Virus record (IMG/VR): IMGVR_UViG_3300027784_000677
Location: 1-50,215 of that record
Direction: 5' to 3' (one strand)
DNA from: a virus
Length of the DNA stretch: 50,215 nucleotides
This document shows positions 3,942-20,659 of this stretch, in pieces (positions within the stretch are counted from its first letter, which is position 1; every line of letters starts with the position of its first letter). Both the position numbers and the translations under genes were made by a program. The notes under the pieces were generated by a model. That model worked only from the letters and a program-made list of their open reading frames with translations, searched no databases and was not told the DNA's origin.

Positions 3942-5291
3942 TTAGTTCACCTCCTTCATCATCATGCCTACTGCCACGTCGGTTAGCGCGCGCTCGAATT
4001 CCGCTGTGCAGTCATTCGCGCCGCTGTGCTTGTGAACCGCCTCGTGGAGCAGGACGTGTATGGTCTGCTGAAGGTCTGCCAGGATGCCTCTGCGAAGGTA
4101 GATCCGATCCTCGCTCCGCTTGTAGACCCCGTTTACCTTGGTGTCCTGGCTTGCGCCGCTCATCCTGCTGAGGTCTTCCGCGATGCTGACGCTCCCTGTC
4201 TCGTTGTAGTGCCGCTCAACCAGTGTGCGGGCCGTCTTGAAGTTACTGCGCTCCTCCTCGGTCAGGTTCTTCAGCGCTATCTTCTTGGCTCCGCCGTTGT
4301 TCCTCGTGATGACCTCGGTGCTGGTTTCGACCCCGATTGCTCCCAGTGCTTCCTGCCAGCGGAAGCCGACCTTCAGTATCTTGTGGCCCTTGTAGCGGGC
4401 CTGAACGTCTGCGTCCTGGTTTCCGTCGCTTACCACCGCGTCCTTACCGATCACCTTGTTGAATGCGCGCTTCCATACCCTGCGGCTGTCCTTGCCGAGC
4501 ATCCATTCGTTGAGGCCGATCTCTACCTCCCAGGCCTCCTCCTCGCGGGCTACTGCCAGCAGTATGCGCTCCATTACCTTGGTGGAGCTCGTTTCGCTGA
4601 TGACCTTGCGGACAACCCGCTCGACCAGGTTCCTGTTGACGATCTCGCGGTCACGGTTACCAATGTCACCTGTCTCGCGCTCCTGTAGGTGGTAGCTGAA
4701 CAGTGCGTTGGGTATCTCCCCGACCTTAGCGCCGTTGATGAAGATGAAGCCTCCTGGAGTGCTGATCTTGCCGCGCTCCATCCACTCGAAGTCGTCCTTC
4801 TTGACCAGGTAGTGCTCGAAGTAGCGCTTCCCTGCTTCAAGCTCCTCCTCGGTGCATTCGAACTTGACGCTGGTTCCTGTGTGCGTCGCCGCGTGCCTCG
4901 GAGCCATCGGCTCTACATTCAGAACCATGACCTCCGTTTGGTAGTCCGCGTCGTGCTCGATGGTTGGCCTTATGACGTTCCCGTTAGCCCAGACCTCGAT
5001 GTCGCGGCCCTCGCGAGCCATCACCAGTAGTGCCAGCTTTAGGCCTTCGCCGTATTTCCCGATGGTGTCGCCGTCCTTTTCGCTTACTCCCAGTGCCAGG
5101 TGACGAAGCTCGAGCCCTGGCCCGTAGTCCTTGGCGATCCCCATCCCGTTCCTCCAGTCGAGGTGTCCCTCGCAGTTGAATTCCTTCCTACTGTCCAGGT
5201 AGTTCTGTATGATCTCCCTTATAGCCTTCTCCGCGTCCCATCCCTTTACGTATTTCGGGCTGATGCCCGTGCTCATTGTCCTCTTAGTCAT
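3942..5291 (-). CDS. GHKL ATPase fused to a zincin-like metallopeptidase domain
   Basis: The 449-residue product starts with a Bergerat ATPase fold: motif N AIREIIQNYLDSRKE (Glu26, Asn30), G1 box DYGPGL at 55-60 and the lid GKYGEG at 78-83, as in Hsp90, MutL and MORC proteins. The middle is unassigned. Near the C-terminus LLHEAVHKHSG supplies HExxH (416-420), the zinc ligand and catalytic motif of zincin peptidases, with Glu residues downstream as a possible third ligand. ATG 5291 follows GAGGAGGAGATCGACA. It may be an ATP-controlled protease aimed at a host protein. The pairing is unusual in a phage and the target is unknown. Confidence 0.75.
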   Translation of the reverse strand: MTKRTMSTGISPKYVKGWDAEKAIREIIQNYLDSRKEFNCEGHLDWRNGMGIAKDYGPGLELRHLALGVSEKDGDTIGKYGEGLKLALLVMAREGRDIEVWANGNVIRPTIEHDADYQTEVMVLNVEPMAPRHAATHTGTSVKFECTEEELEAGKRYFEHYLVKKDDFEWMERGKISTPGGFIFINGAKVGEIPNALFSYHLQERETGDIGNRDREIVNRNLVERVVRKVISETSSTKVMERILLAVAREEEAWEVEIGLNEWMLGKDSRRVWKRAFNKVIGKDAVVSDGNQDADVQARYKGHKILKVGFRWQEALGAIGVETSTEVITRNNGGAKKIALKNLTEEERSNFKTARTLVERHYNETGSVSIAEDLSRMSGASQDTKVNGVYKRSEDRIYLRRGILADLQQTIHVLLHEAVHKHSGANDCTAEFERALTDVAVGMMMKEVN

Positions 5292-5319
5292 TGTCGATCT
5301 CCTCCTCTATATGGTGGTG

Positions 5320-5388
5320 TTGGCCTGCCATCCTCAGAGCAGGGTGGCCATTCCCTGCTGACCAGGCCCTGCGGCCTGGTTTCGGCTG
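5320..5388 (-). ncRNA. Type II hammerhead ribozyme-like element B
   Basis: Minus strand: AGCC-GAAAC (GAAAC at 5383-5379), stem III CAGGCC/GGCCTG, GTC, stem I AGCAGGG/CCCTGCT (7 bp), CTGAGGA (5337-5331), then TGGC. The stem I loop TGGCC can pair with GGCCA downstream, a change from element A that keeps pairing. It ends about 30 bases before the GHKL start codon, after the stop of the zinc-ribbon gene at 5389. Confidence 0.8.
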
Positions 5389-5959: not shown

Positions 5960-6031
5960 GTTGGTATAGCCTGCTCTCATCAGGGTGAGGAGGCTATCCC
6001 TCACCGACGGAGCCGTAGCTCCGTTTCGGCT
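5960..6031 (-). ncRNA. Type II hammerhead ribozyme-like element C
   Basis: Minus strand: AGCC-GAAAC (GAAAC at 6027-6023), stem III GGAGC-TACG-GCTCC, GTC, stem I GGTGAGG/CCTCACC (7 bp), CTGATGA (5983-5977), then GAGC. The loop TAGCCT is fully complementary to AGGCTA downstream, a six-pair pseudoknot with different bases from elements A and B. Stem II needs one bulged A. It ends about 20 bases before the start at 5941. Confidence 0.8.
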
Positions 6032-6496: not shown

Positions 6497-9025
6497 CTAC
6501 CCCTCGTATATTGTCTCCATGTCGCCCCACTTCCTGCCGACGTCCACCTCCACCGAGAACGGAACGTCGGTCTCGAAGTCCACGTCGTGCATCACGTCAA
6601 TGAGGATCTCCGTGGACGGCTTCACCAGGTGACTGGGAACCTGGATCAGGAACCCGTCGTGGATGTGCGGCCAGGGCCTGACGCTGATACCCTCACTGCG
6701 CAGGGTTTCCATTACCCGCAGGTTCGCCAGCAGTGTCATATCGCTTACCGAGCTCTGGATCGGCATGTTGACCGCCTGCCGCTTGACCTCGTTGGCATGC
6801 CCCCTATCCAAGATGATCGGGAACCGCCGCTTCCTACCATATAGGGAGGTGACCTCCTGGTCGCGCAGGACGCGATCCTTCTGCCGAGCTATCCACCTGG
6901 TGACCCCAGGCATCATCTGGAAGAACTTCTTCATGTATGCCTCGGCCTCCGTTAGGGAGACGCTCAGCTGGGGAGCCAGACTCTTGGCCGACCTACCATA
7001 TATGAGGCCGAACGCGATCGTCTTAGCGGCCCTCCTCTTGAACTTGACCTCCTCCTCGGGAAGCGCTTCAAGCTCATCCTCCGAGAGGTTGAACAGCTCC
7101 CGTGATATGGCCCTGTGGATGTCCGTCTCGTGCAGTGCCTCGATTAGCTTGTCGTCCTTTGCGAAGTGGGCCATCATGCGGATCTCCGCCTGGGAGTAGT
7201 CGGCATGTATCAGGGTATAGCCTGGATCCGCGGTGAATATGTCCTTTATAACCTTTTGCCGTGGCATCCCGTGGATGTTGGGATCCGTGGAGGACAGTCT
7301 GCCCGTCCGCGTCCCATGAACCCTGTAGCGCGGTCGGATGCGCCCGTCCTTCCACATTATATCCTTGTATCCCTGATAGTATGCGCCGTGCAGTTTGCTA
7401 TACTCCCTGTGCTCGACGATCAACCTGGGCCACTCGTGCTGTTGGGCCAGCCAGTATAGCATGTAGGTGGACGTGCTCCGCGGCTTCATGTCCGTAAATA
7501 TGTGGGAGGTAGACGACCTCCAATACTCCTGTGCCTCGGGATCTTCCACCTGCTGAATCTGTTGCAGTATGGTGTCCTGGTCAATGCGGTCGGTGTCCTC
7601 GTTGACCATAGGAATCAGTCCCAGGTGGTCAAATATGAACTCCGCGATCTGCTTCGGGCTATTAAGGTTAATCTCCTCGGCTCCCTCGTAGCTCCGTATC
7701 CTACCCTCAAGCTCCTCGATCTTAGCCGACCACTCCGCTCCTATAGCATCGTGGTAGTCAATGTCCACCAACATCCCACTGAGCTCCAGGTCAATGAAGT
7801 GACTCGCCGCGGGAACCAGGAGCTTCTCATGCACCTCGGACACATCGTCCTCCACCATATCCTGCCTGAGATCCTCGGACAGTCGAAGGGTGTAGTCGGA
7901 ATCCGCTCCGTTATACTCCATTATGGCCCGCCGCACCTCGTCATCTGCCCAGTCGTCCAGGGAGAGTTTAAGAGGAGCCTTGCGGTCTTCCTCATCCACC
8001 AGAACCTTCACCGCTCCTTTCTCCCCATTCTCCCGCGCCGAGCGCTTGGTCTTTATTAGGGCCTTGAGCTCGTCATCATACTCGGGAGATCTATACCGTG
8101 ATATGGACAGCCGCTTGAGGCCGTGGGATCCCTGCCGCTCATCTATCGCGTAGTGCATTAGCATGGTGTCCCCAACAAACCTCGGATATATTCCCTTGGC
8201 CCTCAACCACAGGACGTCGAACTGACCGTTGTGGAAGTAGCAGTCTATATTTGCCAAGGTATCTCGCAGGGCCTTGAAGTTAGCCAGGTTACCCTCCACC
8301 AGGGCCTGCCAGTCCAGGACGCAAGCAGTTCCTCGCGCCCAGGTGAAACCGACGCTTAGTATGTGGCCGTCCATGAAATCCAGGCTCGCGGTCTCCAGGT
8401 CGATTGCGGCCTTGCCCACATCCCGCAGACGTTTGATGAGTGCATCGAAGCCCTCCTGCGTTTCTATTATGACGTATGACTCCCGCGGTGGGTTGATGAC
8501 GGGCTCCTCCCCGTCCAGAACGGATTTGATGTATTCCAGATCGGCCACCAAGTCCACAAAGGATTCGGGTGACCGCAGAACCCCCGCTGGATGTAGTGTT
8601 GGTATGATGCGGTGTCCGTGCGCCTCCTGGTATATGCCTCGTCGCTTGGTTATCCCGCGGCCTCCTCCAAGCAGGGAGTTAATGCCAATGTTACCCAGTG
8701 GAACAACGATCCGCGGTTTGACCTCGGATAGTTCCTCCAATAGCCGCCCGTTGCAGGCCCTCATCTCCTTGGCTCGCGGATCACGGTTCTTCGGTGGCCT
8801 GCACAGGCACGCGTTGGTATAGTATATACGTTCCAGGTCAAAGTCTATAAGTGTCAGGGCCTCCCGCAGGAGTTTGCCCGCGCGACCGACGAATGGCCGA
8901 CCGCGCCGCTCCTCCTCTGCCCCAGGAGCTTCCCCGACGAATGCTATATCTGGCTCCTCCGTCCATCCATGTGGATGAACGGGCTCACCACTGAGGGAGC
9001 ACTGGTCGCAGTTTCCTACTCTCAT
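6497..9025 (-). CDS. polA: Family 4 uracil-DNA glycosylase fused to family A DNA polymerase
   Basis: Residues 1-170 form an iron-sulfur UDG: Cys6/Cys9/Cys75/Cys91 as cluster ligands, GEAPGAEEERRGRPFVG as motif 1 and LHPAGVLRSP as the catalytic HP loop. A 3'-5' exonuclease follows with IDLET, NGQFD and ADSDYTL, so proofreading looks intact. The polymerase has motif A DYSQAEIR, motif B RRAAKTIAFGLIYG and motif C HIHDGFLI. In motif C the usual His-Asp-Glu is His-Asp-Gly. Such UDG-Pol fusions are known in other phages. ATG 9025 (AAGGAG nine bases upstream) is preferred over GTG 9031. It overlaps the purA-like stop. It is the replicative polymerase, adjacent to a PurA/PurZ-family gene as in aminoadenine phages. 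Confidence 0.93.
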   Translation of the reverse strand: MRVGNCDQCSLSGEPVHPHGWTEEPDIAFVGEAPGAEEERRGRPFVGRAGKLLREALTLIDFDLERIYYTNACLCRPPKNRDPRAKEMRACNGRLLEELSEVKPRIVVPLGNIGINSLLGGGRGITKRRGIYQEAHGHRIIPTLHPAGVLRSPESFVDLVADLEYIKSVLDGEEPVINPPRESYVIIETQEGFDALIKRLRDVGKAAIDLETASLDFMDGHILSVGFTWARGTACVLDWQALVEGNLANFKALRDTLANIDCYFHNGQFDVLWLRAKGIYPRFVGDTMLMHYAIDERQGSHGLKRLSISRYRSPEYDDELKALIKTKRSARENGEKGAVKVLVDEEDRKAPLKLSLDDWADDEVRRAIMEYNGADSDYTLRLSEDLRQDMVEDDVSEVHEKLLVPAASHFIDLELSGMLVDIDYHDAIGAEWSAKIEELEGRIRSYEGAEEINLNSPKQIAEFIFDHLGLIPMVNEDTDRIDQDTILQQIQQVEDPEAQEYWRSSTSHIFTDMKPRSTSTYMLYWLAQQHEWPRLIVEHREYSKLHGAYYQGYKDIMWKDGRIRPRYRVHGTRTGRLSSTDPNIHGMPRQKVIKDIFTADPGYTLIHADYSQAEIRMMAHFAKDDKLIEALHETDIHRAISRELFNLSEDELEALPEEEVKFKRRAAKTIAFGLIYGRSAKSLAPQLSVSLTEAEAYMKKFFQMMPGVTRWIARQKDRVLRDQEVTSLYGRKRRFPIILDRGHANEVKRQAVNMPIQSSVSDMTLLANLRVMETLRSEGISVRPWPHIHDGFLIQVPSHLVKPSTEILIDVMHDVDFETDVPFSVEVDVGRKWGDMETIYEG

Positions 9026-10227
9026 CTCCACTCACTCCTTAGGTCTATCACCTGATCTGTGTGAGGCCCCGTGGAGACCAGACCCACGCGGCATCCCGCG
9101 ATGTTCTCCACCTCGCTGATATACTCGCACATGCTCGTCGGCAGATCATCCATACTCTTAGCCTTGCTAATGTCCGCGTCCCAACCAGGCATGGTTCCCA
9201 CGCCAGGTATCTCGATCCTCTCCAGGCCGTTCAGCGCGTCCAGAAGGGTAATGGCCAGGTAGTCGTAGTTGCACACTCGAGCTGACCTGCGAAGGCCCTC
9301 CGCGTCGAGCCAGCCTATGCGCCTCGGCCTGTGTATGTGAACCCCGATCTCATACTCGTTACCCTGCCTGCGGATGTGCTCCGCCACTTCCTCATCGCGG
9401 ATCTCCGTGGGTAGCGGCCCCTCACCGATCCGCGTGCTGTAGGCCTTCACCACTCCGACGACATCATCAACGCGCCGAGGATCGACCCCCGCACCAGTTC
9501 CCACTGCCGCAGGGATGCAGTTGGAGGATGTTACGAAGGGATAGTCTCCGTGGTCGATGTCCAGCAGAACCCCCTGGGCTCCAGCAAATACCACCGTTGC
9601 TCCCTCACTGATCGCGTCGTTAACGTGCGCGCTACCATCACCAACATAGTCCGACAGCTCCTCGCGCCACTTGCGGGATAGTTTCTCCAGCTCTCTTAGA
9701 TCTTCCACCCCACCGCCGTTGCGCATTACCACCGCGGACAGCATGTTGTCCAGTTCCCAGTTGAGACGGTAAAGATCCTGCACTCGCACACCCGCGCGGA
9801 AGGCCTTATCCGAGTAGGCAGGGCCATTTCCGCTCCGCGTCGTTCCTATAGATTGCTTCCTCTCATCATCCTGGTTCCCGTCCGCCTTCTGGTGTATTGG
9901 TAGGACGAGATGCGCCCTCTTGTCCACTAAGAGTTTGAAGTCGGGATTGATCGCGCGGACTACCTTGATCTCCTTCAAAAGGAACTCGGGATCGATGACC
10001 ATGCCGTTGCCCAGCACAGCTGTCGTCCCAGGCCGCGTCGATCCAGTCGGGAGAGTGCGGAACATGACCGTCCCGAATTCCTCCGTGTGGATGCAGTGGC
10101 CTGCGTTGCTACCCCCGTTGAACCGCACAGCTATGTCCGCGTTGTTGCGGTTGCACAGGTAATTAACGAACTTCCCCTTGCCCTCGTCGCCCCACAGAGC
10201 GCCGACGACCGTGTAAACCTTTACCAT
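9022..10227 (-). CDS. Adenylosuccinate synthetase family enzyme (PurA or PurZ-type)
   Basis: The 401-residue enzyme has the P-loop WGDEGKGK (Asp14), NAGH (His44), GTTRSGNGPAYSDK, FAGAQGVLLDIDHG, PYVTSSN-like FVTSSN and PRRIGWLD. PurA joins aspartate to IMP; phage PurZ does this with dGMP on the way to 2-aminoadenine. As I recall, PurZ usually replaces the catalytic Asp of the P-loop with Ser or similar; here Asp14 is kept. Other positions drift from PurA: Gly-Arg to Arg-Ser and Ile to Asn in the GPAY loop, FEGAQG to FAGAQG, and the GTP-binding TKLD becomes TLLD. At 401 residues it lies between archaeal-type and bacterial PurA. Substrate is undecided. ATG 10227 follows GAAGGAGGAGGATATTA. Confidence 0.85.
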   Translation of the reverse strand: MVKVYTVVGALWGDEGKGKFVNYLCNRNNADIAVRFNGGSNAGHCIHTEEFGTVMFRTLPTGSTRPGTTAVLGNGMVIDPEFLLKEIKVVRAINPDFKLLVDKRAHLVLPIHQKADGNQDDERKQSIGTTRSGNGPAYSDKAFRAGVRVQDLYRLNWELDNMLSAVVMRNGGGVEDLRELEKLSRKWREELSDYVGDGSAHVNDAISEGATVVFAGAQGVLLDIDHGDYPFVTSSNCIPAAVGTGAGVDPRRVDDVVGVVKAYSTRIGEGPLPTEIRDEEVAEHIRRQGNEYEIGVHIHRPRRIGWLDAEGLRRSARVCNYDYLAITLLDALNGLERIEIPGVGTMPGWDADISKAKSMDDLPTSMCEYISEVENIAGCRVGLVSTGPHTDQVIDLRSEWR

Positions 10228-10763
10228 TAATATCCTCCTCCTTCTTCAGGGTATATTACGACGGCCTCACCGTGGATCTGGAGGGCCTTAGCGCGATCGT
10301 CCACCATAACATCAACGTGGTTCCCGCGCACGGCTCCTCCCGTATCCTCAGCCATCCGCCATCCATAACCCTCGACCCATAGCGGTGTCCCCAGCGGAAT
10401 TACGTTGGGATCCACGGCCACTGTCCTGCCTTCAGTCGGATAGGTTCCCGACCTGGTAGTGGTTGGATCCCCGTCGGAGCACAGGCCCGCAGGATCGTCG
10501 AAGGGAGCGTAGCCAGTGATGCGGAACTCCTCCACCGTCCACTCCGTCGCGTCCTCCTCGAAATCCTCCCACCTACCCAATAGGTCGGTATAGGCCTGCT
10601 CCAATTCGGCCTCTCTCGTGGAAACCTCGCGGGCCAAAGTGTGAACTTCCTCCTGGAGATCCTTGACCTCGGCCCGCCTCTGGTTGATTTCCACCGCCTG
10701 GAGGCTCACCGCACCGACGAGGGATATGATCAACAGTCCGTATGCTACACGTTCCCCAAGCAT
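10227..10763 (-). CDS. Membrane-anchored 3D-domain cell-wall protein
   Basis: Counting from ATG 10763 (GGAGG five bases upstream), an N-terminal hydrophobic segment (YGLLIISLVGAVSLQAV) is followed by a coiled coil to about residue 70 and a C-terminal 3D domain: FRITGYAPFDDP, TVAVDPNVIPLGTPLWV, AEDTGGAVRGNHVDVMVDD. The three aspartates of the 3D fold are present. 3D domains are found in Bacillota peptidoglycan-lytic enzymes. It lies between dpdA-like and purA-like genes, overlapping the former by 19 bases, an odd place for a wall enzyme. It may act in lysis or entry. Confidence 0.8.
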   Translation of the reverse strand: MLGERVAYGLLIISLVGAVSLQAVEINQRRAEVKDLQEEVHTLAREVSTREAELEQAYTDLLGRWEDFEEDATEWTVEEFRITGYAPFDDPAGLCSDGDPTTTRSGTYPTEGRTVAVDPNVIPLGTPLWVEGYGWRMAEDTGGAVRGNHVDVMVDDRAKALQIHGEAVVIYPEEGGGY

Positions 10764-11494
10764 CGGTTCCTCCACCATTCGACGTTTCGCTGGAGCAGTT
10801 CCTCATCCAGCGCATCGTTCGAGAAGTCAAGCTCCACATCGGGCTTGGGATCCCCATCGCCCGCGTATTTGCCCACCTGGGTATACATGGCCGCTATACC
10901 ACTATCCACGCCGCGAACGCGCCCAGGGAAGGCCTGCTCGACCTCATATATCTCCCGTGGATCGTTAGGGCATCCCAGGAGATGGATCTCCTTGTCACTG
11001 TCCACCAGTTCAGGAACGCTCCTCAAGGCCTCGGCCCTGCTTGGGAAGTATCGAGATATGAACCTTGATATTCCGATGGTCTTGACGGGCCACTCGAGCA
11101 TCTCCTTGACGCATATGGCCCATTCCCGCGCATCCGCGCCCTGAGGGACGGCTACCAGGTCGATGTCATGCTCCATCTCGGAGCGCTTCTTGTAGAAGTA
11201 GAACATCGCCCTGCCGCCGCGCATTAGGGTTTCCTGCTTGCTGTAGATCTTGTCGGGAAGCACCATCTCATGAACCCCGTGGTGATCCGCGAGGGTAATG
11301 AGCTCATGGATGTCCATTGGCTCCCCCGTTTCGACGACCCCGTTATCCATCATAACGAGGTTTCCCTTCCTGGCCTGGTGCTTGAAGAACTCCCCATATC
11401 TCGCATCACCCAGGAGGTGCGCCAGACAGAGGTGGTAGTCGTTCCTCATCTCCAGGCCCAGGTATTCCGTTGGTAATATCGTCGCTATCTTCAT
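10745..11494 (-). CDS. dpdA: DpdA-like DNA guanine transglycosylase
   Basis: The product (about 249 residues from ATG 11494, AGGAGG six bases upstream; ATG 11500 is also possible) has the landmarks of the tRNA-guanine transglycosylase barrel in order: MMDNG at 48-52 (the SDSGG-like substrate Asp), AVPQGA near 118 (the QGG loop), GISRF near 143, HLLGCPNDPREI (the HLLG...P motif) and GVDSGIAAMY near 196 (the nucleophile Asp region). The tRNA-binding zinc site of TGT is absent, as in phage DpdA, which swaps guanine in DNA for a 7-deazaguanine. Neighbouring QueD-like, QueF-like and YhhQ genes support this. Confidence 0.85.
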   Translation of the reverse strand: MKIATILPTEYLGLEMRNDYHLCLAHLLGDARYGEFFKHQARKGNLVMMDNGVVETGEPMDIHELITLADHHGVHEMVLPDKIYSKQETLMRGGRAMFYFYKKRSEMEHDIDLVAVPQGADAREWAICVKEMLEWPVKTIGISRFISRYFPSRAEALRSVPELVDSDKEIHLLGCPNDPREIYEVEQAFPGRVRGVDSGIAAMYTQVGKYAGDGDPKPDVELDFSNDALDEELLQRNVEWWRNRCLGNV

Positions 11495-11518
11495 TTTCAT
11501 CCTCCTCCTTCCACGCTC

Positions 11519-11527
11519 ATCGTAGCA
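11519..11527 (-). promoter_or_regulatory. Possible extended -10 promoter before dpdA
   Basis: Minus strand TGCTACGAT matches the extended -10 form TGnTAnnAT and sits 25 bases before ATG 11494. The identical nonamer precedes the gene at 50064, and TGCTATGAT precedes the small terminase gene. No good -35 is visible. Confidence 0.4.
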
Positions 11528-11562
11528 CCCGAACACCATCGGATACTATCACTCATGCCTTG

Positions 11563-11700
11563 CTAATCTTCTTGCTCCTTCTGCCAGTCAGGTCGCAGGT
11601 CGGCCCCGCAGTTGTAGCACTCCCATCGAACCCGATGAGGTGCGTGCAGGACGCACTGGGTATCGCACTCGGTGCAGTCAACCAGGAATAGTTGGCTCAT
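11563..11700 (-). CDS. 45-residue zinc-ribbon protein
   Basis: ATG 11700 overlaps the nrdJ stop codon as ATGA, so it is coupled to nrdJ. The product starts MSQLFLVDCTECDTQC and has a second knuckle CYNCGADLRPDW, giving CxxC...CxxC. It resembles a bare zinc ribbon. Its place between nrdJ and dpdA suggests an accessory to DNA modification or nucleotide metabolism, but no function can be read from the sequence. Confidence 0.65.
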   Translation of the reverse strand: MSQLFLVDCTECDTQCVLHAPHRVRWECYNCGADLRPDWQKEQED

Positions 11701-13445
11701 ACACTGCACACCTCGCATTCCCCGCTATCTCCCTCGTAAAGAACGTCGTCCAGGGAGCCGTTGCGGTAGACCGTCACTCCCTTACATCCGAGGTCATAGG
11801 CCAGCCTATACGCCTCATCAATGTCGTCCAATGTGGAATCGGTTGGCAGGTTTATGGTCTTCGATATGGAGCTGTCCAGATACTCCTGAACCTTGGCCTG
11901 CACGCGGACATGCTCCTCAATGCTCACCTGGCTCGCCGTGACCAGGTGCTGGCCGCACACCCCCTCGAACAGTGGATGCGTCATGTAGTGCTCGCCAGTG
12001 GCATCCCTGCGCAGGTATTTCTTGCTGAAGACGGGCTCGATGCCGCTGGACACTCCCGCCAGTATGCTCGTTGTCCCCGTCGGAGCCTGCGTCAGTAGCT
12101 GTAGGTTGCGGATACCATTGGCCCGTATAGCGGTCTTGACCTCGTTTGGTAGGGTTCGAATGAAGTGCGCCTGGAGATACTTGTCAACGTCCAGCGCTGG
12201 AGCAGACCCCCGCTCCACCGCCAGATCAACGCTGGCAAGGTAGGCCTGATCCCTGATGAAGGAATATATGTGGTCTATAAGAGCCAGACTCTCCGCGGAG
12301 CCGTAGCGAACACCACTAAGTATCATCACGTCCGCCAGACCCATAGTCCCCAGACCGACCCGTCGGATCTGCCGTTGGATGTCGCCGATCTCCTGGTTGA
12401 TGTCCACGCTGAGGTCTATCACGTTGTCCAGGAACCTGACCGCCAGTCGGACGGCCCTGCCAAGCGCATCCCAACGCAGATCCCTTCTGGTTGGATCCCA
12501 GAAGGCCGCCAGGTTGATGGATCCCAGGTTGCAGGATCCTCCCGCAGGGAGTGACTGTTCCCCACACGGATTCATGCAAATTAGTTCCTCCGCGAACCAG
12601 GTGTTGGATCGTTTGTTACACCTCTCGAGGAACACCACACCAGGACTACCCGTGCGATGCGCCCCGTCAAGCATCTCCATCCATATTCTCCTCGCAGGAA
12701 CCCGAGCATACTCCTTCACTGGTAGGCCGCTCTCGACCCACTTTCGGATGTTCCCGTCCCACAGACGGTCGTAGAGCTCATGTGACGTATCAGGAAAGAT
12801 GAGAGTCCAGTCCTCATCATTCTCCAAAGCCTGCATGAACCGATCGGACACGCCAACCGAGAAGTTGGCCCTCTCGAACCGCCTCTCGGGATTCACGAAC
12901 TCCAATATGTCGGGATGCCAGTCCTCCAACATAAACATCAAGGCCGCGGTTCTACTGCCGCCCTGACGGATTTGATCCGCCAGACCGTCCGCGCCTCTCA
13001 TCCAGCTGTTGGCCCCTGAGCTATTGCCGTGGACTCCCTGGATGTAGGAGCCTGAGGGCCTCAGCGTAGACCAATTAACCCCTACCCCGCCACCGCGGGC
13101 TGTAATCTCCACCGTGTCGGATAGGGTATCCATTATACCGTGCCTGCTGTCGTTACCCTTCGTCATGTCCCTGGCCCGAACACCAATGACGAAGCAGTTG
13201 TAGTAGGTCACCTGCTGGCCCGCTCCCGCGCCTGACAGGATCCTACCGCTTGGAACGAACTGAAAGTCCTGAAGAATAGAAAGGAAGTCCTCCCTCTCCT
13301 CAGGTGTCCTACCCATGTTGTTAGCGACCCTTTTCCACATCTCCTGCGGATCGCTCTCCACCTGTTGACCTTGCACGTCCTTCAGCGCGTAGCGGTCGAG
13401 GAATACTCCCTCTCTCTGCTCGTTCCAACTCATAATCGCATATGC
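11697..13445 (-). CDS. nrdJ: Class II (adenosylcobalamin-dependent) ribonucleotide reductase
   Basis: This enzyme reduces ribonucleotides to deoxyribonucleotides using coenzyme B12. Visible motifs are MNPCGEQSLPAGGSCNLGS (active-site Cys and Glu), APTGTTSILAGVSSGIEPV and the ending GCKGVTVYRNGS, all typical of NrdJ. The C-terminal Cys-x2-Cys (GECEVCSV) is the usual thiol shuttle. At about 582 residues it is a compact phage form. The start is uncertain: GGAGGT lies eight bases before TTG 13445; ATG 13451 is too close and ATG 13430 too far. The ribosome binding site lies inside the mazG-like ORF. It supplies dNTPs for replication, next to base-modifying genes. Confidence 0.9.
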   Translation of the reverse strand, partial: AYAIMSWNEQREGVFLDRYALKDVQGQQVESDPQEMWKRVANNMGRTPEEREDFLSILQDFQFVPSGRILSGAGAGQQVTYYNCFVIGVRARDMTKGNDSRHGIMDTLSDTVEITARGGGVGVNWSTLRPSGSYIQGVHGNSSGANSWMRGADGLADQIRQGGSRTAALMFMLEDWHPDILEFVNPERRFERANFSVGVSDRFMQALENDEDWTLIFPDTSHELYDRLWDGNIRKWVESGLPVKEYARVPARRIWMEMLDGAHRTGSPGVVFLERCNKRSNTWFAEELICMNPCGEQSLPAGGSCNLGSINLAAFWDPTRRDLRWDALGRAVRLAVRFLDNVIDLSVDINQEIGDIQRQIRRVGLGTMGLADVMILSGVRYGSAESLALIDHIYSFIRDQAYLASVDLAVERGSAPALDVDKYLQAHFIRTLPNEVKTAIRANGIRNLQLLTQAPTGTTSILAGVSSGIEPVFSKKYLRRDATGEHYMTHPLFEGVCGQHLVTASQVSIEEHVRVQAKVQEYLDSSISKTINLPTDSTLDDIDEAYRLAYDLGCKGVTVYRNGSLDDVLYEGDSGECEVCSV

Positions 13446-13713
13446 CAATACCATTACCTCCTCTCGCATATATGTCCATGATCATCATGGCATAGTTGCC
13501 GACGTCCGCGGCTTCCTTCATGATATCGTCTCGGTCGCCGCGGGATAATGCCTCATCGAGTTCCTCCACTTCCTCACGTAGACGATCAAGAAACCACTGA
13601 GCACTATCAACGCCGAGCTCCTTCCAATGCGGCTTATGGTCGTTGCATCTGAGCTTGTGCTCCATGACCTGCGCGAACTTAGCCACTTCCTCTCTCACAT
13701 TAATCGTCACCAT
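13321..13713 (-). CDS. MazG-like nucleotide pyrophosphohydrolase 1
   Basis: The N-terminal 85 residues are an all-alpha NTP-pyrophosphatase: RLREEVEELDEALSRGD carries the E-x-x-E motif and KEAADVGNYAMMIMD the E-x-x-D motif that bind magnesium. Such enzymes convert (d)NTPs to (d)NMPs; in aminoadenine phages a MazG-type enzyme (MazZ) makes dGMP for PurZ. After IYARGGNG the frame continues for about 40 low-complexity, Arg/Gly-rich residues that overlap nrdJ by 125 bases, so the tail may carry no function. GTG 13710 is an alternative start. Substrate unknown. Confidence 0.75.
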   Translation of the reverse strand: MVTINVREEVAKFAQVMEHKLRCNDHKPHWKELGVDSAQWFLDRLREEVEELDEALSRGDRDDIMKEAADVGNYAMMIMDIYARGGNGIGICDYELERAERGSIPRPLRAEGRARSTGGERSAGDVEKGR

Positions 13714-13732
13714 CCCCTCTCTACTGTGTGGT

Positions 13733-13757
13733 AAGGGAGAGCCCGAAGGCCCTCCCG
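13733..13757 (-). other. UUCG hairpin in the mazG leader
   Basis: Minus strand GGGAGGGCC-TTCG-GGCTCTCCC forms a stable hairpin directly after the QueD-like stop codon and before mazG. No U-tract follows; it may stabilise or process the mRNA. Confidence 0.5.
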
Positions 13758-14450
13758 CTACCTAAACTCCTCGGGAACCTTGTCGGGTTCCAGGAAGCGC
13801 ACTCCCTTACCCAGGGCCTGTGCGTGTCGGATCTCTCCCGCGGTGCTCCTGCCGACGTATCCGTCCACATTGAGCACATAGATCCAGTCAGACATCTCTA
13901 TCTTGCGCTTGTGAAGCTCGTCGAAGGCTATCTTCGCCTCCTCCGAGATCTCCTCCTGGTCTGCGTGCATGAAGCTCCCCACCATGAAGGACGCACATCC
14001 CTCCTCCTCCAGGAGCTTCATGGCATCGAGCCATGCCTGCTTGAAGCGCGTGGAGCCACATATGGTCACCACAGGTGGCCTGGGCCTACTATCCCGATAC
14101 ACCTCCGCGCCGCAGTCCGCATCCTCCATCACTCGGACGCGCTTGACGTGAGGCATCTTACCGAGGATCCAGTTACCTAAGTCCTCGCAGGATGCTCTGC
14201 CGAAGTCGTAGACCACCACCTCCTCCCCGCGATCACCCGTAAGCCGCTTGTAGCTGGCCCTGGAGATGAGCGCCGCCTGGAGATCGTCCCGCAGGTCATG
14301 AAACTCAATGTCTCGGTCAGCGTGATTAACGTCAGCCCATGCCGTGACACGGAAGTCGTGCATGTGCGGATGTTTCAGATACTCCCTAACACCACTGGCT
14401 TCAGGCCAGCAGTGCAGGGCTCGGACTGTCGTTGATACCCTTATCTCCAT
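13758..14450 (-). CDS. QueD/PTPS-like tunnel-fold domain fused to a deoxyribosyltransferase-like domain
   Basis: Residues 1-120 look like 6-pyruvoyltetrahydropterin synthase/QueD: VRALHCW (His13), HPHMHDFRVTAWAD (His29 and His31 as zinc ligands), DIEFHDLRDDL, SCEDLGNWI and VRVMEDADCGAEVY. The catalytic Cys normally just before the HxH motif is missing. Residues 127-230 match the nucleoside 2-deoxyribosyltransferase-like/DUF4406 pattern: VVTICGSTRFKQAW, GSFMHADQEEISEE, LHKRKIEMSD, NVDGYVGRST, GEIRHAQALGK. ATG 14450 or 14453 overlaps the QueF-like stop, and GGAG precedes the second ATG by five bases. The fusion may process a deazapurine base or nucleotide before DNA insertion. Confidence 0.75.
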   Translation of the reverse strand: MEIRVSTTVRALHCWPEASGVREYLKHPHMHDFRVTAWADVNHADRDIEFHDLRDDLQAALISRASYKRLTGDRGEEVVVYDFGRASCEDLGNWILGKMPHVKRVRVMEDADCGAEVYRDSRPRPPVVTICGSTRFKQAWLDAMKLLEEEGCASFMVGSFMHADQEEISEEAKIAFDELHKRKIEMSDWIYVLNVDGYVGRSTAGEIRHAQALGKGVRFLEPDKVPEEFR

Positions 14451-14791
14451 CATAACTCCGCCACCACCATTACTGGCAGGTGGAACGCCGATTCCACCCA
14501 CAGAGTCACCTCGACCCACTCGGGATTCACGGCATCATGGACGCGTTGAGCTACCAGGTTTGCCATGCCCTCCGCCGTGTGCTCAGTGTCCCGCAGGGAT
14601 TCAATCCAGTCCTGCAAGCTGTTCCACTCGATGAGCTTGGTCTCCTCCTCGATCATGGGCTTGTAACTAACCTCGATCGTTCCCCCGTAAGGCTTGCCTG
14701 GAACGGGACATATGGCCTCGAATTCCAGGTCTATACCTATGCTCGTTACGCTACACACATCTTCACTCGGAACCACCACTGTCTTAATCAT
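14450..14791 (-). CDS. QueF-like tunnel-fold protein (atypical active site)
   Basis: The product (113 residues from ATG 14791, GGAGGT nine bases upstream) aligns with QueF, which reduces preQ0 nitrile to preQ1: EFEAICPVPGKPYGGTIEVS supplies the nucleophile Cys, and RDTEHTAEGMANL supplies the substrate-binding Glu. The catalytic Asp seven residues after the Cys in QueF is Tyr here, and the NADPH motif (E-S/L-K-S/A..K) is replaced by EWNSLQDW. It is thus unlikely to be a normal preQ0 reductase. Archaeal QueF-L also lacks the NADPH motif but acts as an amidinotransferase. A new chemistry on a 7-deazaguanine is possible. Confidence 0.72.
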   Translation of the reverse strand: MIKTVVVPSEDVCSVTSIGIDLEFEAICPVPGKPYGGTIEVSYKPMIEEETKLIEWNSLQDWIESLRDTEHTAEGMANLVAQRVHDAVNPEWVEVTLWVESAFHLPVMVVAEL

Positions 14792-15419
14792 CTTTCCCAT
14801 ACCTCCTTACAAGTGCTACACCGAGATATACGAACGGTGTGTCGATCACTGCGATTATGAACTTCGCTACCACGTAGGTCACGAACATCACGATCAGATC
14901 CTCCCGCGGCATCACCCCTGCGAACCCTATGGTTAGGAACACCGCGCTGTCGATGATCTGTGACGTGACCGTGCTGACCGTGTTGCGGAACCACAGGCCG
15001 AACCTGCTGAGCCGCTTCTTGATTCGGTCGAAGATCCACACATCCCAGGTCTGGGATATGAGGTAGGCTGTCATGCTGGCCAGGACTATCCGCGGAACCT
15101 CTCCAAGTATGGTCGCGAAGGCCTCCTGGTTCTCCCAGAAGACCGCGGGAGGTAGCCAGATTCCCAGGTGATACAGGGCCACCATAACCACGTTAGCGAA
15201 GAACCCCGCGATTACCATAGAGTGAGCCACTCGTCGGCCCCACACGTCGTTTACAATGTCCGTCACCAGGAAGGTGATCGGGAAGGCCACGATGCCCGCC
15301 GTCATAACGTAGCCCCCCACCTCGAACAGTTTACTGGCCAGTGTGTTCGCTGACAGGATGGCCGCCATGAAGATCCCTGCCAGGATTAGTAGTGCTCTGA
15401 TCTGCTTAACGCCTTGCAT
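14784..15419 (-). CDS. yhhQ: YhhQ-type queuosine-precursor transporter
   Basis: A six-helix membrane protein of the VUT/YhhQ family, which imports preQ0 or preQ1. Visible segments are AGIFMAAILSANTLASKLFE, AFPITFLVTDIVNDVWGR (the family hallmark), a middle helix pair, WDVWIFDRIKKR, WFRNTVSTVTSQIIDSAVFL and a final helix near IDTPFVYL. Length is normal for the family. ATG 15419 (AGGAG nine bases upstream) is preferred over ATG 15440. It overlaps the QueF-like gene by eight bases. It tells us the phage relies on scavenged deazaguanine, since no QueC, QueE or FolE is present here. Confidence 0.92.
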   Translation of the reverse strand: MQGVKQIRALLILAGIFMAAILSANTLASKLFEVGGYVMTAGIVAFPITFLVTDIVNDVWGRRVAHSMVIAGFFANVVMVALYHLGIWLPPAVFWENQEAFATILGEVPRIVLASMTAYLISQTWDVWIFDRIKKRLSRFGLWFRNTVSTVTSQIIDSAVFLTIGFAGVMPREDLIVMFVTYVVAKFIIAVIDTPFVYLGVALVRRYGKDD

Positions 15420-18744: not shown

Positions 18745-19218
18745 TTAGAACGGTATGTCGTCGTCACCGCCGCCATTGGCCTGACTGGTTTCGGCCTTGG
18801 ACTTGCCTTTAGCTCCGCCCTTGGCCGCTCCGCCCTTACCTGCCGCGGTTACTGCGTTGATGCGATTGACCTCCATATCCTCTCCAGTGTTGCGGCTCTT
18901 GACCGTGGTCTTACCCACCGTGAGTCTGGCCTTCTTACCAATGAGCTTATCCGTGTCGAAGTCCAGGTCTCCGCTGAGGCCGAAGGCCGTCAAGTGCTCC
19001 TTCAGACCGAACAGCGCATGCTCCTGTAGCGATGTGAAGCTCTTCAGTTCCCTTCCAGAATACTCGCCTTCCGTGATCTGCCACGTCCACACGAGCATCG
19101 GATTGCCGCTTGCACTCTCCTCCTCCTCAATGTCCACTACCTTCGCCAGATACTTACCTGGTTCCATCACCTCAAAGCCATCAGGGATCTCGTCCAGGTT
19201 GACCTTAATCCTTGGCAT
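18745..19218 (-). CDS. Phage SSB-like protein (DUF669-type)
   Basis: The 157-residue product has an OB-like beta core (GKYLAKVVDIEEEESASGNP, LVWTWQITEGEYSGREL) similar to DUF669 proteins of phage recombination cassettes, an Ala/Gly/Lys-rich linker and the tip GGGDDDIPF. That acidic, Phe-ended tip is the hallmark of single-stranded DNA-binding proteins and recruits partner proteins. It lies between the FAD dehydrogenase and the primase, in line with a role in replication and annealing. ATG 19218 follows GGAGGTAACGAGT. Confidence 0.85.
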   Translation of the reverse strand: MPRIKVNLDEIPDGFEVMEPGKYLAKVVDIEEEESASGNPMLVWTWQITEGEYSGRELKSFTSLQEHALFGLKEHLTAFGLSGDLDFDTDKLIGKKARLTVGKTTVKSRNTGEDMEVNRINAVTAAGKGGAAKGGAKGKSKAETSQANGGGDDDIPF

Positions 19219-20659
19219 ACTCGTTACCTCCTTTAGATTGGATGATCTTACGGGCCGCTATAACCCCCGTTAGCGCCGCGGACACGAAGCTGTCCAGATA
19301 CCCCGACGCGTTCCCGAGGACGTATAGATCGGCTATTTCCTTGCACTCCCAGGTGTTGAAGTCCACGGGAACCTTGCGCCCGTAGTATTTCACCTCGGGA
19401 GCATAGACCAGCGATTCCTCGCTGACGATGCCTGGGATGACCGCGTCCAGTTCCTTTAGGAACCCGCGGAACCCATCTCTCACCTTATTGGGCATTGCCT
19501 CAGCTATGTCAGGCCCGAACCTGGCCTGGTGGTTGGTGCGAATGCCCGCGCACTCCAACCTCTCCTCTCGAAGCGCTATATTCTCCTCCTTTTCTGCCTG
19601 CGGATTGCCATGCACGAAGTCCTTGGTAGTCTGAACCACAGGATGCCCGCCAGCCAGGTCGTTAATGGACTTGGCTATTGCGCGGACGAAGCTCTGCGGA
19701 TCGTGCGTCTCGCCCAGTCCCACCTTGCATATGATCGCGAAGTTCGACGATCTGCTCCCGAGATCGGGATCGAGGTAGGAATGACCGTTCACGTTGCGGA
19801 TCCCCAGTGTCCGATGGTTTTCATTGACGATGTAGCCCCGCTGGTTACAGCAGAAGCTCCGATATATCAGGCTTCCGTGCTCGTAGACCAGCTTGAAGTC
19901 GTAGAACCTGTCGAACAGCGGAGCAAGAACCTCATGTGCGGCCTCTATTCGCACACCAATCCCCGCTGGCCCAGATCCAAGGTTGACCCCGTTGCGCCGC
20001 AGTTGATCCTCAAGCCAGGGTGCTCCCTGGAGGCCTGTCGCCACCAATATGCGATTGGCTCTGACCTCGTAGGTATCTCCCCTGACCCGATCGTGTATCA
20101 GGATGCCTATCGCCACACCATCTCGGACTATGAGATGAGTGGCCTCGGCCTCATACCAGGTGCGAACTCCGTTGGCCCTCAGGTGCTCCGCGTGACCGCG
20201 AATCAGATCCCTCACGCCGTCGGATCCGATGTGCCTCAGTGGGTAGCTCCCGAACTCGAATTTAGAACCCTTGAACTCCTCGGGAGTTCCTGGCAGTGGA
20301 TCGAAGTCCCTGCCCGCGCCGCCGAAGCGGACTATGGTGTCGTCTATCTCCCGTAATATTGGTGCGTGCTTCTCGTCGAACAGCTCCTCCATCTGCGTGC
20401 CGCGGGATAGGCTGTAGGTCTTCTTACCGTCCGAGAAGCCCCCTGCGCCGCCCTCTCCTTCGAGGATGTCGCAGGTTGAGCAGGAGCACTTCGGGCTCTC
20501 GTTGCACTTCCGATCATCCATTTGCTTGCCCATGTCGATGAGCAGGATATCCTTGATGCCGTTCTTCTGGAGCTCATCCGCCGCGAACATTCCCGCAGGG
20601 CCTGCTCCTATAATAACTGTGTCGTGGTATCCCACGTCGCGCTTAATCTTCTCCACCAC
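19205..20659 (-). CDS. FAD-dependent dehydrogenase (COG2509-like)
   Basis: The 484-residue flavoprotein starts with a Rossmann dinucleotide motif (TVIIGAGPAGMFAADEL), then a Cys cluster KCNESPKCSCSTC and GEGGAGGFSDGK, a combination seen in the uncharacterised COG2509 dehydrogenases. RILVATGLQGAPW and the final VLGNASGYLDSFVSAALTG complete the FAD fold. The reaction is unknown. It is translated from GTG 20659 (GGAGGT eight bases upstream), overlapping both the RecA-like and SSB-like genes, so it is embedded in the recombination operon. Phage relatives are unusual; it may reduce or oxidise a modified nucleotide, but that is inference. Confidence 0.85.
   Translation of the reverse strand: MVEKIKRDVGYHDTVIIGAGPAGMFAADELQKNGIKDILLIDMGKQMDDRKCNESPKCSCSTCDILEGEGGAGGFSDGKKTYSLSRGTQMEELFDEKHAPILREIDDTIVRFGGAGRDFDPLPGTPEEFKGSKFEFGSYPLRHIGSDGVRDLIRGHAEHLRANGVRTWYEAEATHLIVRDGVAIGILIHDRVRGDTYEVRANRILVATGLQGAPWLEDQLRRNGVNLGSGPAGIGVRIEAAHEVLAPLFDRFYDFKLVYEHGSLIYRSFCCNQRGYIVNENHRTLGIRNVNGHSYLDPDLGSRSSNFAIICKVGLGETHDPQSFVRAIAKSINDLAGGHPVVQTTKDFVHGNPQAEKEENIALREERLECAGIRTNHQARFGPDIAEAMPNKVRDGFRGFLKELDAVIPGIVSEESLVYAPEVKYYGRKVPVDFNTWECKEIADLYVLGNASGYLDSFVSAALTGVIAARKIIQSKGGNEYAKD

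Follow-up and report, generated by a model that had tools for sequence, protein, structure and literature searches.

A Probable Salvage-Type Route to 7-Deazaguanine in the DNA of a Tailed Phage Encoding YhhQ, QueF-like, QueD2 and DpdA Proteins

Introduction

How might a phage obtain a 7-deazaguanine base for its DNA when it carries a transporter for such bases and none of the usual genes for making them? This question is raised by an operon in the IMG/VR record IMGVR_UViG_3300027784_000677, the whole linear sequence of which (50,215 bases) was analysed and is termed the window below. Read from right to left on the minus strand, the operon encodes a helix-turn-helix protein, a YhhQ-type transporter, a QueF-like protein, a QueD-like domain (here QueD2) fused to a nucleoside 2'-deoxyribosyltransferase-like (NDT) domain, MazG, NrdJ and a DpdA-like protein, and then continues leftward with a 3D-domain protein, PurA and a fusion of a family-4 uracil-DNA glycosylase, an exonuclease and PolA. 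The majority of these genes overlap or almost touch, and several of them, including that of DpdA, have good ribosome-binding sites.

An earlier note, made from the sequence, had described the leftward operon from YhhQ to DpdA, and all of its genes were indeed found at the places given there. It had also proposed a DpdA-based, salvage-type module for 7-deazaguanine DNA modification. The analysis supports this proposal: on balance, it is rather probable that this tailed phage uses YhhQ, the QueF-like protein, QueD2 and DpdA together as a salvage-type module that modifies guanine in its DNA, with 7-deazaguanine as the likeliest product. The absence of FolE, QueE and QueC, which the earlier note had read as a sign of salvage, holds only for this possibly incomplete record: models of FolE, QueC, radical SAM proteins (QueE) and canonical QueD/PTPS gave no match anywhere in its 50,215 bases.

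A Short DpdA of Phages

The 249-residue DpdA-like protein gave no match in a Pfam search and scored 13.8 bits against the bacterial DpdA equivalog NF041059, whose cut-off is 200; it matched phrog_20335 at 2.5e-7. An AlphaFold2 model based on 16 sequences (pLDDT 85.4, pTM 0.84) retrieved the DpdA crystal structure 7ui4 as its top match in the PDB (E 8.9e-7), followed by tRNA-guanine transglycosylases (TGTs). As modelled, the protein has the TIM-barrel fold of the TGTs, in the form closest to DpdA, and, as the module proposed by the earlier note requires, it lies inside the TGT/DpdA superfamily. The two aspartates of the catalytic type (in DNG/DSG and GVDS/STDS), D50 and D197, are invariant in the 16 sequences and in a distant phage, L196 (see below), and D81, P117-Q118, H171-L-L-G174 and S198, next to D197, are also kept in the relatives. 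The start codon is preceded by the ribosome-binding site GGAGGAGG.

Homologues of this DpdA sit in folE/queD/queE(/queC) clusters in phages Youna2, BSP7 and phiST and in many IMG/VR contigs. Single-sequence scans of viral records with either DpdA or the QueF-like protein yielded no relatives, so alignment-based scans were required for both. Judged from its sequence, the window protein is not of the bacterial DpdA family but is a divergent, short phage DpdA. In many phages (L002, L004, L005, L006, L128-L173 and L195/L196), the short DpdA gene adjoins a deoxynucleotide-kinase-like gene, a kinase for which a purely post-replicative base exchange does not account.

QueD2 in the Place of QueC

The QueD-like domain scored below the cut-off of the PTPS profile (9.5e-4), and the AlphaFold2 model of the fusion protein (pLDDT 88.9) matched PTPS/QueD structures (E 1.7e-5), the Foldseek matches of the domain including 2oba and E. 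coli QueD (4ntk). Three histidines of the zinc-binding type are kept (His 14, 30 and 32 of the 231-residue protein; columns H15, H31 and H33, invariant in alignment A3), with the HxH aligned with the HGH of a PTPS structure. The catalytic Cys ahead of the HGH position is absent in 11/11 of the homologues aligned in A3, all of which share an SCE motif, and an ED motif is also kept. Because no row of this alignment has the Cys, the domain was not filed as QueD. It is instead a member of a large, Cys-less phage family, QueD2, with homologues in 25 GenBank phages and in at least 247 IMG/VR stretches, rather than a QueD that has lost its catalysis.

The neighbours of QueD2 were counted in two sets of loci, 160 in all. 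In the 80 best QueD2 loci, DpdA occurred in 53, FolE in 55, QueE in 45, QueD in 37 and QueC in none. The 80 loci nearest to the window DpdA had QueC only (20), QueD2 only (51) or neither (9), and again none had both (Fisher 2.8e-12, or 8e-13 after dereplication at 80%, with kinship uncorrected), such that the two genes co-occurred in 0/160 loci. Among 12 GenBank phages, QueC above the cut-off was found solely in the two without QueD2; the Vibrio phage D479 has a partial, 26-bit QueC match. These neighbourhoods, in which QueD2 is accompanied by DpdA and by early genes of the 7-deazaguanine pathway, indicate that it stands in for QueC after QueE.

The product of QueE is 7-carboxy-7-deazaguanine (CDG). 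In 2023, Cui and colleagues reportedly detected 2'-deoxy-7-deazaguanine in phages and predicted that an enzyme, DpdL, decarboxylates CDG. Such a role would suit QueD2, which is probably DpdL, a lead that comes from this prediction and from the replacement of QueC. Since QueD2 is probably DpdL, 7-deazaguanine is a likelier final base than the derivative not yet described that had been suggested earlier. A glycosyltransferase gene lies near QueD2 in 52 of the 80 QueD2 loci (L014-L093), often with a long DpdA; these loci perhaps direct a glycosylated 7-deazaguanine or another hypermodification.

An Altered QueF-like Protein and a Fused NDT Domain

The QueF-like protein passes the cut-off of PF14489 (28.3 against 27.3 bits) and falls below that of TIGR03139 (5.5e-11, 42.3 against 86.9 bits). 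In alignments with B. subtilis QueF (4f8b) and the archaeal QueF-L (5jyx), the nucleophilic Cys28 and the substrate-side Glu74 are kept. Asp62 of B. subtilis QueF, seven residues after the Cys, is replaced by Tyr35, the Asp also being absent in the comparison with 5jyx, and the NADPH motif is gone, with EWNSLQDWI in place of ESKSLKLYL. The roles given here to the Cys, the Asp, the Glu and the NADPH motif are those generally known for QueF. To judge from these residues, the protein is not a standard, preQ1-making QueF, nor does it have the Cys and Asp pair of QueF-L, the archaeosine synthase.

C28, KPYGGT, LEWNS, E74 and SAFHLPV are invariant between the QueF-like proteins of the window and of L196. 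When applied to IMG/VR, a pattern scan retrieved these relatives and no others. The subfamily is small and conserved, and it is apparently undescribed. Gene decay was rejected as the cause of the lost residues, since the changes in QueD2 and in the QueF-like protein recur in relatives and are thus family traits. Matches to PF14489 in Youna2 and BSP7 were rejected as QueF, these proteins being FolE.

In the C-terminal half of the fusion, the model matches nucleoside 2'-deoxyribosyltransferases (E 3.6e-4), including CtNDT (8pqr), 9emw and others. The predicted domain has the NDT fold, whereas the Tyr-Asp/Asn-Glu triad is incomplete: the Asp (in MSDW) and the Glu (in STAGE) are present, and VVTICGSTRF contains no Tyr. 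The view that two enzymes of the operon lack key residues therefore stands for the QueD-like domain (Cys) and the QueF-like protein (Asp to Tyr) and has to be extended to the NDT domain, while DpdA keeps its aspartates. Relatives of the NDT domain (L094-L101) are 46-49% identical to it and none is near dpd genes, and the fusion was found solely in the window phage among the QueD2 proteins examined. The NDT domain may have a share in the modification at the nucleotide level; its conservation does not favour such a role.

YhhQ and a Recurring Module

YhhQ scored 169.8 bits against TIGR00697 (cut-off 50.95) and 6.9e-50 against PF02592. Scanning with YhhQ proteins from phages brought up two distant stretches, L195 (IMG/VR 3300025115_000157) and L196 (3300010293_000065), with the order YhhQ, QueF-like, QueD2, MazG, kinase, DpdA, followed by a polymerase of the same kind as in the window. 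Their proteins are 28-64% identical to those of the window (YhhQ, 64% in L196; QueF-like, 44-49%; DpdA, about 40%). The recurrence of this order in a distant phage means that the grouping of the genes in the window is not due to chance. Both stretches have the same odd residues in the QueF-like protein as the window; they differ from it in that QueD2 stands alone and a kinase is found where the window has the NDT fusion and NrdJ. Neither NrdJ nor PurA was found in these stretches. MazG (PF01503, 4.8e-6; PF03819, at its cut-off of 22.0 bits) occupies the matching position in L195/L196 and lies beside QueD2 in the Cellulophaga phage phiST, whereas NrdJ (TIGR02504, 520 bits, cut-off 400) is outside the conserved module.

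In other phages, YhhQ accompanies either QueC and DpdA or QueD2 and DpdA, mostly without FolE, QueD or QueE nearby; the combination of YhhQ, QueD2 and DpdA with none of these three nearby occurs in the Faecalibacterium phage Roos and in L216, L217, L221 and L224. The cargo of E. coli YhhQ is preQ0/preQ1 (PMC5372724). Phage-borne YhhQ is known from the haloarchaeal viruses HCTV-1 and HCTV-16, and salvage with DpdA only from the Salmonella phage 7-11, having also been suggested for HRTV-29 (PMC8651126). In three further loci (L209, L212 and L222), YhhQ lies beside a full or nearly full FolE/QueD/QueE(/QueC) set and DpdA, and import as its sole role is doubtful there because the set for base synthesis adjoins it.

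The Proposed Route and Its Alternatives

In the proposed route, YhhQ would import a 7-deazaguanine base (the known cargo of the family being preQ0 and preQ1) into the infected cell. In QueF, the Cys becomes linked to the preQ0 nitrile as a thioimide, and the most likely role of the QueF-like protein, a guess from its residues, would be to hydrolyse salvaged preQ0 towards CDG and so feed QueD2. The latter would then strip the 7-carboxyl group from CDG to give 7-deazaguanine, as its place in lieu of QueC and the DpdL prediction suggest, and the short DpdA, given its fold and residues, would exchange guanine in the phage DNA for this base. MazG and the fused NDT domain would probably adjust the deoxynucleotide pool. 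The modified DNA would be protected from host restriction, as 7-deazaguanine DNA is in other phages (PMC6884629). The likeliest final base is predicted to be 7-deazaguanine.

Several points weigh against this route. The known cargo of YhhQ is not CDG and phage Roos has no QueF-like protein, which leaves a gap between the cargo and the substrate of QueD2. It is conceivable that the QueF-like protein has no activity or serves for binding only. In a tree, the window DpdA is on a long branch of unsure placement, outside both main QueD2 clades and with QueC-type rows nearest, so kinship does not reveal its base preference. Part of the genome may be missing from the record, which limits the absence of FolE, QueE and QueC. 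Finally, the salvage of preQ0 or preQ1 put forward in the earlier note is supported as to the type of system, but simple salvage leaves QueD2 unexplained unless the host, or preQ0, is the source of CDG.

One alternative is that the same module ends in preQ1, preQ0 or an amide/archaeosine-type base, with the QueF-like protein acting on salvaged preQ0 as a reductase or amidinotransferase, DpdA inserting what it makes, and QueD2 having another role. The cargo of YhhQ fits this (PMC5372724), as do the QueF/QueF-L homologues that accompany dPreQ1 in phages Dp-1 and HVTV-1 (PMC6884629), the retained Cys and a length like that of QueF-L. It seems unlikely all the same, since the Asp common to QueF and QueF-L is a Tyr in both the window phage and L196, the NADPH motif is lost, and the conservation of QueD2 in the place of QueC is left unaccounted for. 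It is more doubtful still that two things hold together: that the QueF-like protein is a new NADPH-free preQ0 enzyme (nitrile to acid or amide) feeding QueD2, on a novel salvage route by which imported preQ0 becomes 7-deazaguanine, and that the NDT domain loads or unloads the base on deoxyribose 5-phosphate, part of the modification then taking place at the nucleotide level.

Another possibility is a pre-replicative route, in which the NDT domain couples deoxyribose (phosphate) with the salvaged base and the polymerase incorporates the resulting nucleotide. There is a precedent in DmtZ, an NDT-family enzyme of Z-phages that makes dZMP from the Z base and dAMP (PMC12884076); an NDT fold is fused to QueD2, and dNMP-kinase-like genes flank many of the related DpdA genes, including those of L195/L196. 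This route appears improbable given that DpdA is present with its aspartates, that no Tyr completes the triad of the NDT domain, and that neither L195/L196 nor any other QueD2 locus examined has the fusion, the nearest NDT relatives having no dpd genes nearby.

That the genes serve host tRNA queuosine or nucleotide metabolism, and not DNA modification, is very improbable. It is true that the queuosine pathway, too, includes YhhQ, QueF and TGT-like genes and that nrdJ, mazG and purA are in the same operon, but the best structural match is DpdA, the relatives belong to phage 7-deazaguanine DNA clusters, the protein is far shorter than the tRNA TGTs, and neither a tRNA gene nor a preQ1 riboswitch (sought upstream of yhhQ) was found. 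A Z-genome, with 2-aminoadenine DNA made by a PurA-like protein, MazG and DNA polymerase I, was rejected as barely conceivable: these genes adjoin, and the PurZ and DpoZ models gave weak matches, but at 114.8 against 300 bits and 93.5 against 500, and PurA keeps, in WGDEGKGK, the Asp13 for which each of 147 phage PurZ proteins has a Ser (PMC12884076).

The Operon and the Rest of the Record

Table 1. Features of the operon and of other parts of the window.
Feature	Position	Strand	Evidence or remark
YhhQ/COG1738 queuosine-precursor transporter, 218 aa	14784..15440	-	TIGR00697, PF02592, L196 counterpart
QueF-like T-fold protein ('QueF2'), 113 aa from ATG 14791; ATG 14800 alternative	14450..14791	-	TIGR03139, alignments
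QueD2 domain, N-terminal half of 231-aa fusion; probable DpdL	14079..14453	-	alignments, Foldseek, neighbourhoods
NDT-fold domain, C-terminal half of fusion	13758..14078	-	Foldseek, relatives
MazG/PRA-PH-type nucleotide pyrophosphohydrolase	13321..13713	-	PF01503, PF03819, position in relatives
NrdJ, B12-dependent ribonucleotide reductase; in operon, outside conserved module	11697..13469	-	TIGR02504
Short DpdA of 249 aa (predicted DNA-guanine transglycosylase), from ATG 11494	10745..11494	-	AlphaFold2 model, conserved residues, neighbourhoods
PurA, beside polymerase; not PurZ	9022..10227	-	Asp13 kept
Fusion of family-4 uracil-DNA glycosylase, 3'-5' exonuclease and PolA	6497..9031	-	similar proteins in Youna2, L196
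Type II hammerhead ribozyme	5965..6031	-	48.9 bits, cut-off 37
Type II hammerhead ribozyme	5319..5387	-	49.6 bits, cut-off 37
449-aa protein	3942..5291		phrog_6077; by eye, GHKL-type ATPase-like fold and HEXXH-like C-terminus
FAD-dependent oxidoreductase	19205..20659		no PHROG match; among replication genes

The record contains markers of tailed phages (a terminase large subunit, phrog_979; helicases; a primase-polymerase; a Sak4-like protein; PolA). No terminal repeat was found at its ends, and this linear record may be a fragment of the phage. A near-identity DNA search among phage records gave no match. One contig assigned to 'Candidatus Dojkabacteria T1Sed10_24' (L102, PWFU01000106.1) is 99.9% identical to the window over 7.9 kb and hence represents the same phage, probably binned by mistake in a Candidatus Dojkabacteria genome; the T1Sed10 samples are presumably soda-lake sediment. 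This closest copy offered only 8 differences for a selection comparison. The two hammerheads, about 0.65 kb apart, have the same sense as the genes and lie in gaps between small open reading frames, where a function in mRNA processing in the phage is possible.

Comparison with Known Systems

The replacement of guanine by DpdA is already known, and the presence of 7-deazaguanine in phage DNA probably is too. The window adds a new salvage-type set, in which the QueF-like subfamily is altered, together with a new fusion of QueD2 and NDT, and the exclusion between QueC and QueD2 is new in its extent. The module is apparently one that depends on importing its base rather than on synthesising it, and the chemistry of its QueF-like protein cannot be that of the textbook. 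The exclusion across 160 phage loci is a genomic rule that could predict the base of a phage.

The QueF-like protein belongs by sequence to the T-fold family of QueF and the archaeal QueF-L, with which it has in common the nucleophilic Cys and a Glu on the substrate side; it differs from them in the Tyr that replaces the Asp, the missing NADPH motif and a low identity. At the level of gene order, QueD2, DpdA and YhhQ are also adjacent in phage Roos (orf77-79), with no FolE, QueD or QueE nearby, although there the DpdA is very divergent and both a QueF-like protein and an NDT fusion are lacking. The cluster of phage phiST (FolE, QueD, QueE, MazG, QueD2, kinase, DpdA) likewise combines QueD2, a short DpdA and MazG without QueC, whereas it has FolE, QueD and QueE, has neither YhhQ nor a QueF-like protein, and contains a QueD2 that is not fused to NDT. 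In the systems of 9g, nt-1, Youna2 and BSP7, as in the window, a DpdA-type transglycosylase is in an operon with genes for a 7-deazaguanine base, but the base is made there from GTP by FolE, QueD, QueE and QueC, whereas the window record, in which these are absent, has YhhQ, and QueD2 in the place of QueC.

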